In this document: in pieces, positions 18,602 to 45,895 of the stretch
Layout: each line of letters opens with the position of its first letter
Position numbering within the stretch: position 1 is the stretch's first letter
Source: Planotetraspora kaengkrachanensis
GTDB lineage: Bacteria; Actinomycetota; Actinomycetes; Streptosporangiales; Streptosporangiaceae
DNA: 64,000 bases
NCBI RefSeq assembly: GCF_016862895.1
Contig: NZ_BONV01000036.1
Span: 62,001-126,000 of the forward strand
Direction of reading: 5' to 3'
Program-made: the position numbers and the translations under genes
Notes under the pieces: generated by a model
Told to the model about the DNA's origin: nothing
Seen by the model: the letters and a program-made list of their open reading frames with translations, nothing else
The model's database searches: none

Positions 18602-20137
18602 ATGTCACCGCCCGCCCCTCTGCGTGCCGACGACCCCCGGCGCCTCGGTGTCTATCGTCTGGCAGGGCGCATCGGCCAGGGGGGCCAGGGAGTGGTGTTC
18701 CTCGGCACCGCTCCCGGCGGCGGCCACGTCGCGGTGAAGCGCATGCACCAGGAGTTGGACGACGAGAAGGCCAGGCGACGGTTCATCGCCGAGGTGGATG
18801 CGGTGCGGAGGGTCGCACCCTTCTGCACGGCGCAGGTGCTCGACGCCGACCTCGACGGAGAGCGCCCCTACATCGTCAGCGAGTACATCGACGGGCCCTC
18901 CCTCCGCGAGGACATCACGACCTCCGGCCCCCGCACCGGAGGATCGCTCGATCGGATCGCCGTGGCCATGGCCACCGCGCTCGCGGCCATCCATCGGGCC
19001 GGCGTGGTGCACCGGGACTTCAAGCCGGGCAACGTCCTGCTCGGCCCCGACGGCCCGCGCGTGATCGACTTCGGCGTCTCCCGGATTCTGGACGCGACGG
19101 AGACCGCGACGATCACTCCGGTCGGCACGCCCGCGTACATCTCTCCCGAGCAGCTCAGGGGAGAAAAGGTGAGTCCGGCGGCCGACATGTTCGCCTGGGC
19201 TCTCACCGTCGCCTACACCGCGAGCGGGCGGCACGCCTACGGCGCGGAATCCTTCGAGGCGATCCTCGGCAGGATCCTGTTCGGCACGGCCGACCTCGGG
19301 CCTCTCAGCGGCCGGTTACGCGACATCGTCGTCACCTGCCTCGCGGCGGACCCCGCCGAGCGGCCGACCGCTGACCAGGTGCTGCGTCACCTCATCGGCC
19401 CTGACGAGTTCGGCCTCCCCGGCGCGACACCCGGCACCGTGCTCGAGGCGGGAGCGCTCCTGGCCGGCGACACCCGCCCGACCTCCTCGGCGAACGAGGC
19501 GGAGGAGAGCGTCTCCGCGGACGCCGTCACCGACCCCCAGGCGGCACCGGGCGCCGAGGAGGTCGTCTCCGTGCCCGACCGGGACGGAATCGAGCACACC
19601 CGTCCAGGCCCCGTCTCAGGGTGGTTCCTGCGAAAGCCCGCCCTCGTGACGGTGGCCGCCGTACTCGTTGCCGGTGTCGTCGGGGCGGCGTTGTGGTGGA
19701 CCGGTCACGTCCCCGCGGGCACGATCGCCTCGCCGTCCCCGTCCTCAGTGCCTGTGTCCTCCTCCACTGCGCCCGCCACGCCGACCGCCACCCCTTCGCC
19801 GCCGGGAGCGTTCTCGTACGTGGGCCGCTGGACCGGAAGCGCCGAGTACTCCACGAGAGACCTGGTCTTCTCCGTGGAACTCGTCCTGGCCGCGGACTCG
19901 GCCGAGTCCGGCTCCATGAGGTGGGGGGAGAACCTTCAGTGCTCGGGGCGGTTGAGCCGGATCCGTGAGACGGCCGTCACCCTCACCATGCGGCTCGGCA
20001 AGGTCACCGGCCCCAGCGGGTGCTACCCGGGCACGCTCGCGCTCACTCCGCAGGGCAGCGACACCATGGCCTTCCAGGTCACCCGCACAGGAGAGGATCG
20101 GCCCCGGTATTCCGGCCTCGCCGTCCTGACCCCCTGA
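18602..20137 (+). CDS. Receptor-like Ser/Thr protein kinase
   Basis: 511 residues. Kinase domain about 15-265: glycine loop GRIGQGGQGVV, VAVKRM lysine, catalytic loop HRDFKPGNVLL near 136 (Phe for the usual Leu), DFGVSR near 155, and GTPAYISPEQL. After a linker rich in acidic residues a single membrane helix lies near 348-368 (VTVAAVLVAGVVGAALWW), then a Ser/Thr/Pro-rich stalk and an external domain of about 110 residues with two Cys (LQCSGRL, SGCYPGT) that could form a disulfide. The extracellular ligand is unknown. The first 53-bp repeat array starts 14 bp downstream. Confidence 0.9.
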   Translation: MSPPAPLRADDPRRLGVYRLAGRIGQGGQGVVFLGTAPGGGHVAVKRMHQELDDEKARRRFIAEVDAVRRVAPFCTAQVLDADLDGERPYIVSEYIDGPSLREDITTSGPRTGGSLDRIAVAMATALAAIHRAGVVHRDFKPGNVLLGPDGPRVIDFGVSRILDATETATITPVGTPAYISPEQLRGEKVSPAADMFAWALTVAYTASGRHAYGAESFEAILGRILFGTADLGPLSGRLRDIVVTCLAADPAERPTADQVLRHLIGPDEFGLPGATPGTVLEAGALLAGDTRPTSSANEAEESVSADAVTDPQAAPGAEEVVSVPDRDGIEHTRPGPVSGWFLRKPALVTVAAVLVAGVVGAALWWTGHVPAGTIASPSPSSVPVSSSTAPATPTATPSPPGAFSYVGRWTGSAEYSTRDLVFSVELVLAADSAESGSMRWGENLQCSGRLSRIRETAVTLTMRLGKVTGPSGCYPGTLALTPQGSDTMAFQVTRTGEDRPRYSGLAVLTP

Positions 20138-20150
20138 CCCACCCCCCGGC

Positions 20151-20428
20151 GTGATCATGCACGGGTTCGGCCGCGCATGGTCTGACGTGCCCGAACCCTT
20201 GGCGTGATCATGCACGGATTCGGAGACGTACGGCCTGATCAGGTGTGATGCGGTTCGCGATCATGCATAAGGCCCTTGCCTGCATGATCACGGATGGTGA
20301 AGAACCAGTTCGGGTGGGTCTTCGCAGAATCTGTGCATGATCACAAACTATGTTCCCGCTGGTCGCGGGACACCTCACCGAGTCTGTGCATGATCACCCC
20401 AAGGGGGTCATGATCACCCCAAGGGGGG
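20151..20428. repeat. 53-bp-period repeat array, locus 1 (opposed blocks)
   Basis: Unit heads in forward orientation (GTGATCATGCAC and variants) start at 20151, 20204 and 20257; heads in reverse orientation (GTGCATGATCAC and variants) start at 20280, 20333 and 20386. All steps within a block are exactly 53 bp. The conserved part is about 19 bp (consensus GTGATCATGCACAGATTCG); the remaining 34 bp is degenerate but alignable, with a shared CTGACCTG-like word. A further pair of TGATCACCCC copies 20-21 bp apart closes the array (20397-20429). It lies between the convergent kinase and HxlR genes. Confidence 0.85.
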
Positions 20429-20959
20429 TCATGACTCGGCTGGTTCGCTCGCGCGTCCGGCGAGGGCGGCCACGCGGCCGGGGACGCCCGCGTATCGCCC
20501 GCGCATTCCTTCACCGGCACCCGGACCCGCGGCGAACCGCACCCCGGACGCCGTGATGGGCTCACCGGTCTTCCGGTCGACCAGGACCGGATCGATCTCG
20601 CGCCCGGTCTCGGAGTCGACCACGATCACCGGCCGTTCGCCGTCGGCCCGCAGTTCGTCGCCCCAGGTGCTCAGCGCGAGCAGTACCGGCAGGAATCGCC
20701 GCCCGCGCTCGGTGAGCACGTACTCGTACCGAACGGGACGCTGCTGGTACGGCCTGCGGGACAGGACGCCGGCCGCCACAAGTGCCTTGAGTCGGCGGGT
20801 CAGCATGTTGGGCGCGATGCCCAGGCTGCGCTCGAACTCGTCGAAGCGGCTGTAGCCGTCGAAGGCGTCACGCAGGATGAGCATGCTCCACCAGTCGCCG
20901 ACCTGGTCCAGGCTCGCGGCCATGGGGCACTCGGCCCCCGAGAAGCTGGTGCGCTGCAT
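20429..20959 (-). CDS. HxlR-family transcriptional regulator
   Basis: 176 residues with the HxlR winged helix: CPMAASLDQVGDWWSMLILRD, then the recognition region FDEFERSLGIAPNMLTRRLKAL and a YVLTERGRRFLPVL wing. HxlR proteins often sense electrophiles through an N-terminal Cys; Cys11 is present. It is the second gene of an operon with the aldo/keto reductase (4-bp gap). It probably autoregulates through the palindrome upstream of that gene. A TAGCGT box 6 nt before the ATG may give an additional leaderless transcript. Confidence 0.9.
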   Translation of the reverse strand: MQRTSFSGAECPMAASLDQVGDWWSMLILRDAFDGYSRFDEFERSLGIAPNMLTRRLKALVAAGVLSRRPYQQRPVRYEYVLTERGRRFLPVLLALSTWGDELRADGERPVIVVDSETGREIDPVLVDRKTGEPITASGVRFAAGPGAGEGMRGRYAGVPGRVAALAGRASEPAES

Positions 20960-40821: not shown

Positions 40822-42953
<2,132 letters not shown>

Positions 42954-42957
<4 letters not shown>

Positions 42958-43156
42958 TCACCGCACTGTGGCGGTGATCAGCACCTCTTGATGGTGATCA
43001 CCGCACCCTTGGTAGTGATCACCGCACGCACCTTGGCCGTGATCATGCACAGGTTCGCGTGAACGCCCCGCCACCTGGGCCGACCCTCATCGTGATCATG
43101 CACAGGTTCGTGGAAATACCGCCCGGCCTGCGGAAACTCAGAGCGTGATCATGCAC
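42954..43156. repeat. 53-bp-period repeat array, locus 2, with a 20-21-bp sub-block
   Basis: Forward unit heads GTGATCATGCAC start at 43039, 43092 and 43145, exactly 53 bp apart; the first two extend to GTGATCATGCACAGGTTCG. Upstream, TGATCA-containing copies (TGATCACCGCAC and variants) start at about 42954, 42974, 42994 and 43015, i.e. 20-21 bp apart. The block fills the gap between convergent copA and the GH20 gene. Confidence 0.85.
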
Positions 43157-43163
43157 GCAGGGG

Positions 43164-44798
43164 TCACATGCTGGGACGGGTCGACTCGGCCGAGAACGTC
43201 ATCTCGTCGAGGTGGCTCATCACCTCGTGCACGAGCACGACCCCCGGCCGGTGCCGACGCCAGCCCGTGCCGCCTCGCTGCCACGGACGCGGGCCGGCGA
43301 GAGGCCGGTACTCCACCCCGAAGGCGTCCAGCCGTACGAGATGGGCGTCGAGACGCGGCAGGAACTCCGCGCGTACGGCAGGGCCGCCCGTCCAGGTGAT
43401 CTCGGCGGCCGCGCAACCGCGGGGCCACGCGCGATAGTCGAGCGTGCGGCTGTCGGGGATGCGCTCACTCCACAACTGGAACTGGGCGCCGATCACCCGG
43501 TCACGCTCCTCCGGCGTCCACTCGCTCGGTGCCGGGGCGAACTCTGCGACGTCCTCGACGGTGATCGTGTCGCCGATCGCCACGGGCTCCTCCTCGGAGG
43601 CGGCCTCGGCGTAGTCGAAGTACATCGGGAAGACGGGCGTCGCGACCACGTCGTGTCCCGCGCTCGCCGCGCGGCGGCCGACGCCCTGGCCGCGCCACGG
43701 CATGACGATCGTGTCCTGCCGCAACATGCCGCTGACGAACGCCTCGTCCCACACGACGGCGCGGCTGCCGCGCTCGGCCAGCACGTCCGCGAGCCGCCTC
43801 AGGAACCAGGCGTGCAGGTCGCCGGGCGTTTCCAGACCGAGTTCCGCCTGGTACGCGCGGATCTCGGGGGAGGCCTCCCAGTCGTCGAGCACGCACTCGT
43901 CGCCGCCGATGTGGAAGTACGGCACCGAGCCCAGCGCGCCGATGATCTCGTCGATCACCGTGGCCAGGAACTCCACGGTCGCGGGCAGGGGCGACAGGAT
44001 CGCGGGCGAGACACCCCAGCGATCGAGGACGTCGTACGGCTCGCCGGGCTTGGCGCCCAGGGACGGGTAGGCGGCCAGGATCGCCGAAGCATGGCCCGGC
44101 ACGTCGATCTCGGGGACGATCGTGACCGCCCGTGCGCGCGCGTAGGCGGAGATCTCCGCCAGGTCGGTCAGCGTGTAGTACCCACCATGCGGAAGCCCGT
44201 CGAAGGTGGGCTCGTCACCGAAGGGGCTGGTCGTCGTCTGTGCACGGTGGGATCCGACCTCGTGCAGCAGCGGGTACGCCCGGCTCTCGACCCGCCACCC
44301 CTGGTCGTCGACCAGGTGGAGATGGAGCCGGTTGAGCTTGTGGAGCGCCAGCAGGTCGATCATCCGCAGCACGTCCCGCTTGGGGAGGAAATGCCGGGAC
44401 ACGTCCATGTGGGTGCCCCGCCACGAGAACCCGGGGGCATCCTCGATGCGGCCTGCGGGGAGCGTCCACACGGCGCCGGGCAGCGGCGCAGACCGGAACG
44501 CGTCGGCGGGCAGAAGCTGCCTCAGCGTCTGCGCCGCGTAGAACGCGCCGGCAGGTCCGCTCGCGGCGATCCGCACCGATTCCGCCGTGATGGTGATGCG
44601 ATAGGCCTCGTCCCCCAGTTCGGGGTCCTGCTCCACCCGCACCGCCGCCGTCTCGGCCGGTCGCAGGTCCAGTACGGCCAGGGCCGTCCGTACGGAGTCG
44701 ACGAGATGGGCGGGGCCGGAGATCCCGGCACCCGGCGCGAGTTCGAACGATCCCGGCGCCTTTTCGGCCAGTTTGGGGCGGGGAAGCAGGTAATCCAT
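43164..44798 (-). CDS. Beta-N-acetylhexosaminidase, GH20
   Basis: 544 residues. A GH20b-like N-terminal domain (to about 120) and the catalytic barrel beginning at APGFSWRGTHMDVSRHF. The adjacent catalytic Asp-Glu pair is in FHIGGDECVLDDWE. It removes terminal GlcNAc from chitin or peptidoglycan fragments. No signal peptide is visible, so it probably acts on imported fragments in the cytosol. ATG 44798 is chosen; ATG 44810 and further upstream starts are in frame. The gene is flanked on both sides by 53-bp repeat arrays in inverted orientation. Confidence 0.92.
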   Translation of the reverse strand: MDYLLPRPKLAEKAPGSFELAPGAGISGPAHLVDSVRTALAVLDLRPAETAAVRVEQDPELGDEAYRITITAESVRIAASGPAGAFYAAQTLRQLLPADAFRSAPLPGAVWTLPAGRIEDAPGFSWRGTHMDVSRHFLPKRDVLRMIDLLALHKLNRLHLHLVDDQGWRVESRAYPLLHEVGSHRAQTTTSPFGDEPTFDGLPHGGYYTLTDLAEISAYARARAVTIVPEIDVPGHASAILAAYPSLGAKPGEPYDVLDRWGVSPAILSPLPATVEFLATVIDEIIGALGSVPYFHIGGDECVLDDWEASPEIRAYQAELGLETPGDLHAWFLRRLADVLAERGSRAVVWDEAFVSGMLRQDTIVMPWRGQGVGRRAASAGHDVVATPVFPMYFDYAEAASEEEPVAIGDTITVEDVAEFAPAPSEWTPEERDRVIGAQFQLWSERIPDSRTLDYRAWPRGCAAAEITWTGGPAVRAEFLPRLDAHLVRLDAFGVEYRPLAGPRPWQRGGTGWRRHRPGVVLVHEVMSHLDEMTFSAESTRPSM

Positions 44799-44843: not shown

Positions 44844-44962
44844 CTGCATGATCACGGCGGACAAAGCACCAGGTCAGAGGGTGCGCGACCGAACTCGTGC
44901 ATGATCACGCACGGGAGAGTGGCAGGTCAGGGCGTGTGCAGCCGAATTTGTGCATGATCACG
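44844..44962. repeat. 53-bp-period repeat array, locus 3
   Basis: Reverse-orientation heads (GTGCATGATCAC and a first variant with C) start at 44844, 44897 and 44950, exactly 53 bp apart. Read on the minus strand the last two units share both head (GTGATCATGCAC plus an RTTCG-like end) and a CTGACCTG word in the body. They lie upstream of the GH20 gene. A G-rich GGGGCGCGGCGAG repeat follows to 45010. Confidence 0.85.
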
Positions 44963-45019
44963 GCGAGGGGGGCGCGGCGAGGGGGGCGCGGCGAGGGAGG
45001 GGAGGGCGCGGCGAGGGGA

Positions 45020-45895
45020 TCAGGTGAGGTAGGACCGGAGGCCTTTGGCGAGGGACTCGGCGATGCGCTGGCGGAACTGGGCGCTCTTGAACTTGGCCGC
45101 CTCGCTCGCGTTGCGCATGTTCCCGCACTCGATGAAGACCTTGGGAACGGTCGAAAGGTTGAGGCCGCCGAGGTCCTTGCGGTAGTCGAGCGCGTTCTTG
45201 CCGATGTAGGTCGAGTACGGCAGGCCCGTCCCGGAGTGGAACGCGTTCCTGACCGCGACGCCGAGCTTCGCGGAGGCGCCCACGACCGGGTCGACCGGGC
45301 CGTGGATCTTCTGCGGCATGATCACGTGGAAGCCGTGCGCGCTCGCCGGGGCGCCGTCCCCGTGGATGGAGATCGCGGCGTCGGCCTTCGCCTGGTTGCC
45401 GATCGCGGCCCGCTGCGTGATGCACGGGCCGGCACCGGTGTTGTTCTTGCGGGTGAGCTTCACCGTGGCGCCCTCGGCCTTGAGGATCTTGGCCAGCCGG
45501 TTGGAGACGTCCCAGGTGAACGCGGCCTCGGAGTACCCGTCGTTGGTCGACGTCCCGGTGGTGTCGCAGGCCTTCCACTGGGTGAGGACGTTGACCTGCT
45601 TGTTGATGATCTCAGGATGCTTGAAGTTGCCCCCGTTGTGGCCGGGGTCGATCACGATGACCCTTCCGGCGAGGGGGAGCGGCGGTTTCTTCTTGCTGAG
45701 CGGAGCCTTGGAGGTCGGGACCGCGGCCGGACCGGCGTTCTTCTGGGGTACCCCCGTCACCTGGGACGTCGCGCTCACAGGCTTCGTGGTGGTCGTCTGC
45801 GAACCGGCCGCGCCCGTGCTCGCCGCGCCGCCGCAGGAGGCGGCTCCCAGGCCGGCCAGGGCGAGAGCTGCGGCGGCGAGCAGTCGAGTGGTCAC
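45020..45895 (-). CDS. N-acetylmuramoyl-L-alanine amidase lipoprotein (Amidase_3)
   Basis: 291 residues. Lipoprotein signal with Cys21 (LAGLGAASC), a Thr/Pro/Lys linker to about 72, then an Amidase_3 catalytic domain: zinc His in VIDPGHNGG, Glu in DGYSEAAF, second zinc His in AISIHGDG, and the catalytic Glu in VFIECGNMRN. It cleaves the amide bond between MurNAc and the stem peptide at the cell surface. Start GTG 45895 with AAGGGA upstream. Confidence 0.93.
   Translation of the reverse strand: MTTRLLAAAALALAGLGAASCGGAASTGAAGSQTTTTKPVSATSQVTGVPQKNAGPAAVPTSKAPLSKKKPPLPLAGRVIVIDPGHNGGNFKHPEIINKQVNVLTQWKACDTTGTSTNDGYSEAAFTWDVSNRLAKILKAEGATVKLTRKNNTGAGPCITQRAAIGNQAKADAAISIHGDGAPASAHGFHVIMPQKIHGPVDPVVGASAKLGVAVRNAFHSGTGLPYSTYIGKNALDYRKDLGGLNLSTVPKVFIECGNMRNASEAAKFKSAQFRQRIAESLAKGLRSYLT

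Follow-up and report, generated by a model that had tools for sequence, protein, structure and literature searches.

The DNA between the ends of a protein kinase gene and an HxlR regulator gene in Planotetraspora kaengkrachanensis carries two facing blocks of a short word, the head, recurring every 53 bp, which raises the question of what kind of element has so rigid a layout and what it might do there. The whole stretch of DNA analysed, referred to here as the window, is 64,000 bp long (G000:C36:62001-126000) and belongs to a genome of 8.77 Mb (G000); the related genomes are those of P. thailandica (G001), P. phitsanulokensis (G002), P. mira (G003), P. silvatica (G004) and a member of a sister genus (G105). 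The initial annotation had listed twelve 12-bp heads in four blocks, and all of them are present, nine exactly and three with 1-2 mismatches (two mismatches at 20257, one each at 20280 and 44844). As it had also claimed, the spacing is exactly 53 bp within all four blocks of three heads each (Table 1). The 23 bp given for the separation of the heads of blocks A and B is the start-to-start distance from 20257 to 20280; the actual gap is 11 bp, and the two inner heads can pair into a stem that closes an 11-nt loop. When up to 2 mismatches are allowed, the 12-mer matches the window 28 times, against a mean of 4.46 in shuffled sequence (largest value 12), and the 16 matches beyond the twelve block heads are scattered or adjoin the blocks. 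The first two short tandem repeats in Table 1 each combine TGATCA with a CCCTTGG/CCCCAAGG word and are separate from the 53-bp blocks.

Table 1. Arrays, neighbouring genes and short tandem repeats in the window (window coordinates).
Feature	Position	Strand	Remarks
Protein kinase gene	ends 20137	+	upstream of block A
Block A	20151-20268	+	heads 20151/20204/20257 at 53 bp; 13 bp past protein kinase stop
Centre between facing inner heads	20269-20279		11 bp
Block B	20280-20397	-	heads 20280/20333/20386 at 53 bp; 31 bp past HxlR regulator stop
Short tandem repeat, 20-21 bp	20389-20434	-	contains TGATCA; between HxlR stop and block B
HxlR regulator gene	20429-20959	-	
P-type ATPase gene	40822-42957		upstream of block C
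Short tandem repeat TGATCACCGCACCCTTGGTGG	42955-43027	+	about 3.6 copies; starts with the ATPase stop codon
Block C	43039-43156	+	exact heads 43039/43092/43145 at 53 bp; 81 bp past ATPase stop; 7 bp from end of GH20 gene
GH20 hexosaminidase gene	43164-44798	-	convergent
Block D	44844-44961	-	heads 44844/44897/44950 at 53 bp; 58 bp past amidase stop; 45 bp upstream of called GH20 start
14-bp tandem repeat CGGCGAGGGGGGCG	44961-44997		2.6 copies; directly abuts block D
Amidase gene	45020-45895	-	

A scan of the host genome for the 12-mer showed that its spacing is not random. The genome contains 652 exact copies (320 forward and 332 reverse) and none of the reversed pattern, and 298 pairs of exact copies lie at exactly 53 bp (149 on each strand) against 0 in the control. 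Every exact head in 400 kb of contig G000:C1 falls in a block of at least three heads; this contig holds 19 blocks of 3 to 6 heads, a block with n heads having n-1 complete units, and its exact heads alone give 30 intervals of 53 bp and 4 of 106 bp among the 38 that are under 400 bp. Across six genomes the head-to-head pitch is 53 bp in 290 of 319 intervals, 52 bp in 16 and 54 bp in 6, with the remaining 7 ranging from 21 to 60 bp, as given by a block finder that favours 52-54 and 106 bp where heads are imperfect. Irregular gene-proximal head spacings of 21, 30, 31, 35 or 60 bp occur at G000:C1 28555, 100653, 282477 and 329022 and at G003:C1 22306, as if new units arise at the gene-proximal edge of the array.

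The unit comprises a 19-bp head, a word of 7 bp at +32 and a variable rest. Its consensus was derived from 303 non-redundant units (reduced from 560 distinct ones; several species mixed, G105 excluded) and starts GTGATCATGCAC. The head consensus is GTGATCATGCACAGGTTCG, in agreement with the initial estimate of about 19 conserved base pairs, and is followed by a variable stretch, by CTGACCTGCGC at +31 to +41, and by the further consensus positions AC at +44/+45, C at +47 and C at +52. A spacer word C(C/T)GACCTG is found at +31 to +38, the remainder being degenerate, so that the description of the family as a repeat unit, and not as a repeat with unique spacers, stands. Sister-genus units (n=36) share this layout, with TTCC and a middle word that differs slightly.

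This layout separates the arrays from the systems to which they might be compared. A search of window positions 19900-20700 against Rfam 15 gave a single match, to RF01325, which scores 22.6 bits where the gathering score is 37 and lies on the adjacent short repeat, and nothing above the gathering score. CRISPR arrays also have a conserved word at regular spacing, but their spacers are unique and unrelated, whereas the 53-bp spacer is part of the unit and has a conserved word common to unrelated loci. The TAACTGA direct repeats of Beggiatoaceae, proposed to be binding sites, are described as intergenic and patchy, with 169 sets of two to six in one genome (PMC4679880); as far as that description extends, they are heptamers mostly no more than several nucleotides upstream of start codons, whereas the 53-bp arrays lie at gene ends, and the two have in common only the notion of direct repeats limited to a lineage. 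The initial remark that no named element has this form was upheld, in that the family falls outside the definition of REP/BIME elements and no description of it was found in the open-access literature (subscription papers being outside the scope). We rate the family as new, with the coverage of open-access literature as a caution.

The placement of the arrays relative to genes was analysed with gene calls from a purpose-made script, on stretches some of which in G000, and all of which in G105, were picked for holding arrays. Of the 98 blocks in the five Planotetraspora genomes, 74 have their head side toward a gene 3' end, and 69 of these 74 lie within 60 bp of the stop codon and point the gene's way. 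Among the 69 own-array gene ends of the hairpin comparison below, 15 have a stop codon that is the TGA of the head itself. The corresponding figures for G105, with 2 edge blocks excluded, are 13 of 21 blocks and, within 60 bp of the stop, 8 of those 13. A strict rule by which blocks always lie in the sense direction behind a stop codon was rejected, since in 24 of the 98 blocks the head side is toward a gene 5' end. Over long contiguous stretches, arrays occupy 24 of 245 regions between convergent genes, 32 of 980 between tandem genes and none of 244 between divergent genes, counts in which orthologues enter more than once; G000 alone gives 8 of 74, 8 of 277 and 0 of 73, respectively. When all stretches are taken together, 2 of 71 array-bearing Planotetraspora regions are divergent. 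Since the arrays are mostly at gene 3' ends, their position partly addresses the question of termination.

Intergenic regions with two blocks always have them facing (27 of 27 regions in Planotetraspora and 6 of 6 in G105), so the arrangement first noticed in the window holds elsewhere in the genome. Of 33 facing pairs, those of G105 among them, 9 have a gap of exactly 11 bp, and the A/B pair of the window is one of the nine. The 39 array-bearing tandem regions include 18 with a sense block only, 12 with an opposite block only and 9 with both; the opposite blocks lie between the end of one gene and the start of the next, several of the opposite-only ones sit just upstream of the next gene, and some antisense-only blocks are conserved between species. 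The most exact heads adjoin the gene and heads decay inward, the head mismatches in G000 rising with distance from the gene as 0.11, 0.14, 0.48, 0.76 and 1.0.

The near-equal use of the two strands, the enrichment in convergent regions and a pitch near five helical turns would be expected of chromosome-architecture or topology sites, at which a nucleoid protein, condensin loading or gyrase acts where transcription-driven supercoils collect. The polarity of the arrays toward the gene and the decay of heads away from it argue against such sites, as does the absence of a significant 10.5-bp period in conservation, and we consider this explanation quite improbable. Helical periodicity of conservation was itself rejected as a candidate: the best period was 19.75, and the test over positions 12-52 gave P = 0.004 under plain permutation, 0.28 under permutation with blocks and 0.37 for the spacer alone.

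Conservation is concentrated in the head. Among orthologous units of ten species pairs (2 to 40 units each), divergence is 1-5% in the head, a figure somewhat lowered by the preselection of heads at no more than 3 mismatches, 0-8% in TTCG, 0-19% in the middle word and 15-40% at other spacer positions; head positions 11-14 are variable (13-83%), mostly in comparisons with P. thailandica. The 23 units compared between G000 and G003 show 9 differences at 253 head positions versus 88/299 and 90/299 in the spacer, and the 40 units compared between G003 and G004 show 11/440 versus 83/520 and 76/520. Between G000 and G003, intergenic DNA outside the arrays has diverged by 10.0%, and its 131 regions show 0.237 indel events for every substitution. 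Against this rate of insertion and deletion the fixed 53-bp pitch does not seem passive, and its retention favours recognition as double-stranded DNA over flexible RNA. The idea that genes shun head sub-words was rejected, as no avoidance was seen in coding sequence.

In P. thailandica the head itself has changed, by the same two bases across loci, from CAC-AGG to CAG-AAG. Of the 44 P. thailandica heads examined, 33 have G at position 11 and 33 have A at position 13; of 167 heads examined in G000, 138 have C and 105 have G, respectively, at these positions. The search 12-mer for P. thailandica included the G at position 11, and the unbiased evidence is therefore position 13 together with the contrast between exact CAC pairs, which are almost gone (1 + 1), and GTGATCA triples at 53/53, of which there are 380. 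Spacers at shared loci are recognisable for only 2-4 unit pairs per comparison. A two-base change across loci is as expected if a recognising protein had changed.

The spacers evolve quite differently. Between G000 and G003 they differ by about 30%, or three times the 10% intergenic background, an excess that points to turnover of units or to the mixing of neighbours when units were paired by spacer similarity. When orthologous blocks have unequal unit numbers, the shared units are in register at the distal end (24 cases) more often than at the proximal end (11) or at neither (1), so turnover tends toward the gene side. Whole arrays are also gained or lost between species. P. phitsanulokensis, whose identity to G000 is 94.2% along a 60-kb query, has 51 exact 53-bp pairs and lacks any block at 4 of the 12 places that could be compared, one loss leaving 16 bp where G000 has 530 bp; the heads of its remaining units are still conserved, with 4 differences at 121 positions. 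P. thailandica has 378 bp where G000, G002 and G003 have 12 bp. Its contig G001:C12 has arrays at the places corresponding to G000:C1 158928 and 209173, where G000, G002 and G003 have 0-12 bp between the genes.

The arrays are a young repeat system, seen in one genus plus a sister and occupying hundreds of sites. At least 79 stretches in named genomes match, and among the matches listed all are from Planotetraspora; exact 53-bp pairs occur in 5 of 60 genomes searched, again all Planotetraspora. Three GTGATCA words at 53/53 are found in 6 of 341 genomes of the family, namely the five Planotetraspora and G105, and are absent from the 335 others; among 296 genomes sampled from the class the triple occurs in G000 itself and in no other. 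G105 is the nearest non-Planotetraspora genome among 71 searched, as judged from one protein (90%), which we take, from a motif, to be DNA polymerase I. For G110 and G129, which are among the three next-nearest genomes, a like array with another head or pitch was rejected, as 200 kb of each showed neither a 53-bp peak nor an array word. Spread by phage or plasmid was likewise rejected, as viral contigs have no exact head pair and blastn of window positions 20140-20440 against plasmids and phages gave no match.

Wholesale appearance and disappearance, and spacers that diverge faster than other intergenic DNA, would also fit a selfish repeat of REP/BIME or MITE type that multiplied within the clade and is tolerated behind genes since its insertion upstream of them would be harmful. 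The facing blocks would then be the two arms of a founding element; of 74 pairs of equal-rank spacers from the two arms, 9.5% reach an identity of 65% or more, as compared with 3.0% of 164 pairs of other ranks at the same locus and 1.0% of 627 pairs between loci. REPs are described as lying for the most part between genes that converge or run in one direction, behind coding regions and often in opposite-facing pairs (PMC3733652), and the 53-bp arrays resemble them in being intergenic, present in many copies, downstream of genes and paired in opposite directions. However, REPs are palindromes of 20-40 bp, whereas the 53-bp unit has no conserved stem and its pitch is rigid, and neither the GTAG nor the CGTC tag of REPs is in the unit consensus. 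REPs are often associated with RAYT transposases, and a REP driven by one was rejected here, as four of the five Planotetraspora genomes, G000 among them, have no match to the Y1 transposase family PF01797. P. thailandica is the only one of the five with PF01797 matches, four in all (G001:C42, C12 and C55), one with internal stops. Heads and pitch that are held while spacers diverge, many array positions common to several species, the absence of a conserved hairpin or covariation, and the lack of matches in viral contigs, plasmids and phages likewise speak against a selfish repeat, which we regard as unlikely.

No covarying base pairs were found within the unit among the 303 units. Mutual information peaks at adjacent positions; the best Watson-Crick excess for pairs at least 4 apart has z=2.9, and the few distant column pairs slightly above the permutation maximum of mutual information have no Watson-Crick excess. 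An intra-unit hairpin between AGGTTCG and CGACCTG, complementary by eye, was not borne out by this analysis, and the mean unit fold energy is only 0.74 kcal/mol below that of shuffles, with 57% of 150 negative. Conserved islands without covariation suggest that the sequence, and not a fold, is recognised.

Strong hairpins, defined as those below -20 kcal/mol in the 100 nt past the stop, are found at 7 of 69 own-array ends and at 14 of 30 ends in array regions without an own block, and at 143 of 250 convergent and 91 of 250 tandem ends (both samples) without an array. G000 alone gives 4/30 and 7/13 for the first two classes, and 55/95 and 40/121 for the convergent and tandem ends; G105 shows no contrast, with 2/8 own-array versus 2/12 convergent ends. 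This deficit is what the replacement of hairpin terminators would look like, and is partly trivial because the array itself fills the 100 nt examined. Within the array a strong hairpin occurs in 0% of 13 close facing pairs and 14% of 56 other cases, and beyond the array in 62% and 25%, respectively, the hairpin in the 62% being formed by the inner heads themselves. A hairpin with similar GTACGGCATG-type arms lies in a facing-block gap at G000:C1 282097-282234 and at the same locus in G003, G004 and G001. T runs (any 8-mer with at least 5 T, the sole measure used) are present at 19% of 31 array ends, and C exceeds G after the array-bearing stops (skew 0.14 at 31 ends, against -0.08 to 0 in other classes).

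The skew, the hairpins that inner heads can form across central 11-nt gaps, and the sense direction of most blocks behind a stop codon are features that an RNA-level element might have, in which the binding of a protein or Rho to heads within the 3' untranslated region governs the stability of the mRNA or its termination. Against it, a pitch of strictly 53 nt is difficult to account for in flexible RNA, the units have no conserved paired structure, and 12 of the 39 tandem regions have antisense-only blocks, some of them conserved between species. Such an element seems slightly less probable again than a selfish repeat.

The rigid pitch, the polarity, the constraint without structure and the two-base head change argue for a sequence-specific protein on double-stranded DNA, and a border function is suggested by the location at gene ends and by the way paired blocks face each other. 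We tentatively favour, as a real possibility, that the arrays are phased, polar sites at which a putative sequence-specific DNA-binding protein would mark transcription-unit borders. Each unit would offer the 19-bp head and, about three helical turns on, a second contact word, and a pitch of about five turns would align the putative bound proteins on one face of the helix, where they could bind cooperatively. With the head end of the array facing the gene, RNA polymerase leaving the gene would meet the best-preserved heads first and might be stopped or slowed, possibly with the help of Mfd or Rho, and facing blocks may insulate convergent or consecutive genes from each other. In E. coli, protein roadblocks are reported to stop polymerase, which is then removed by Mfd (PMC4132739). 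The mammalian Sal box is a short site bound by the protein TTF1 that ends transcription downstream of the gene in an orientation-dependent manner (PMC11358750); it belongs to eukaryotic rDNA, whereas the 53-bp arrays are phased and lie at many loci behind ordinary bacterial genes. As far as can be judged from sequence, the polarity and constraint of the 53-bp sites could fit a Sal box-like protein-roadblock terminator.

Several observations sit poorly with the boundary reading. Plain polar termination leaves unexplained the 24 of 98 head sides at a gene 5' end and the 12 of 39 tandem regions with only an opposite block. The lack of a hairpin contrast in G105, the lack of a significant 10.5-bp period and of avoidance of head sub-words in genes, the spacer divergence of about 30% and the block losses in P. 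phitsanulokensis all count against it as well. The more specific proposal of a clade-specific boundary system, in which operator arrays and one putative protein form polar, hairpin-free barriers and the specificity has shifted in P. thailandica along with hundreds of sites, is graded lower, as somewhat doubtful. If the boundary reading is true, these bacteria would separate genes by a protein-based, array-built means outside the usual hairpin and Rho termination. Whatever the function, the strict geometry, together with one species in which many arrays have been lost and another in which the head has changed, makes the co-evolution of sites and protein testable.
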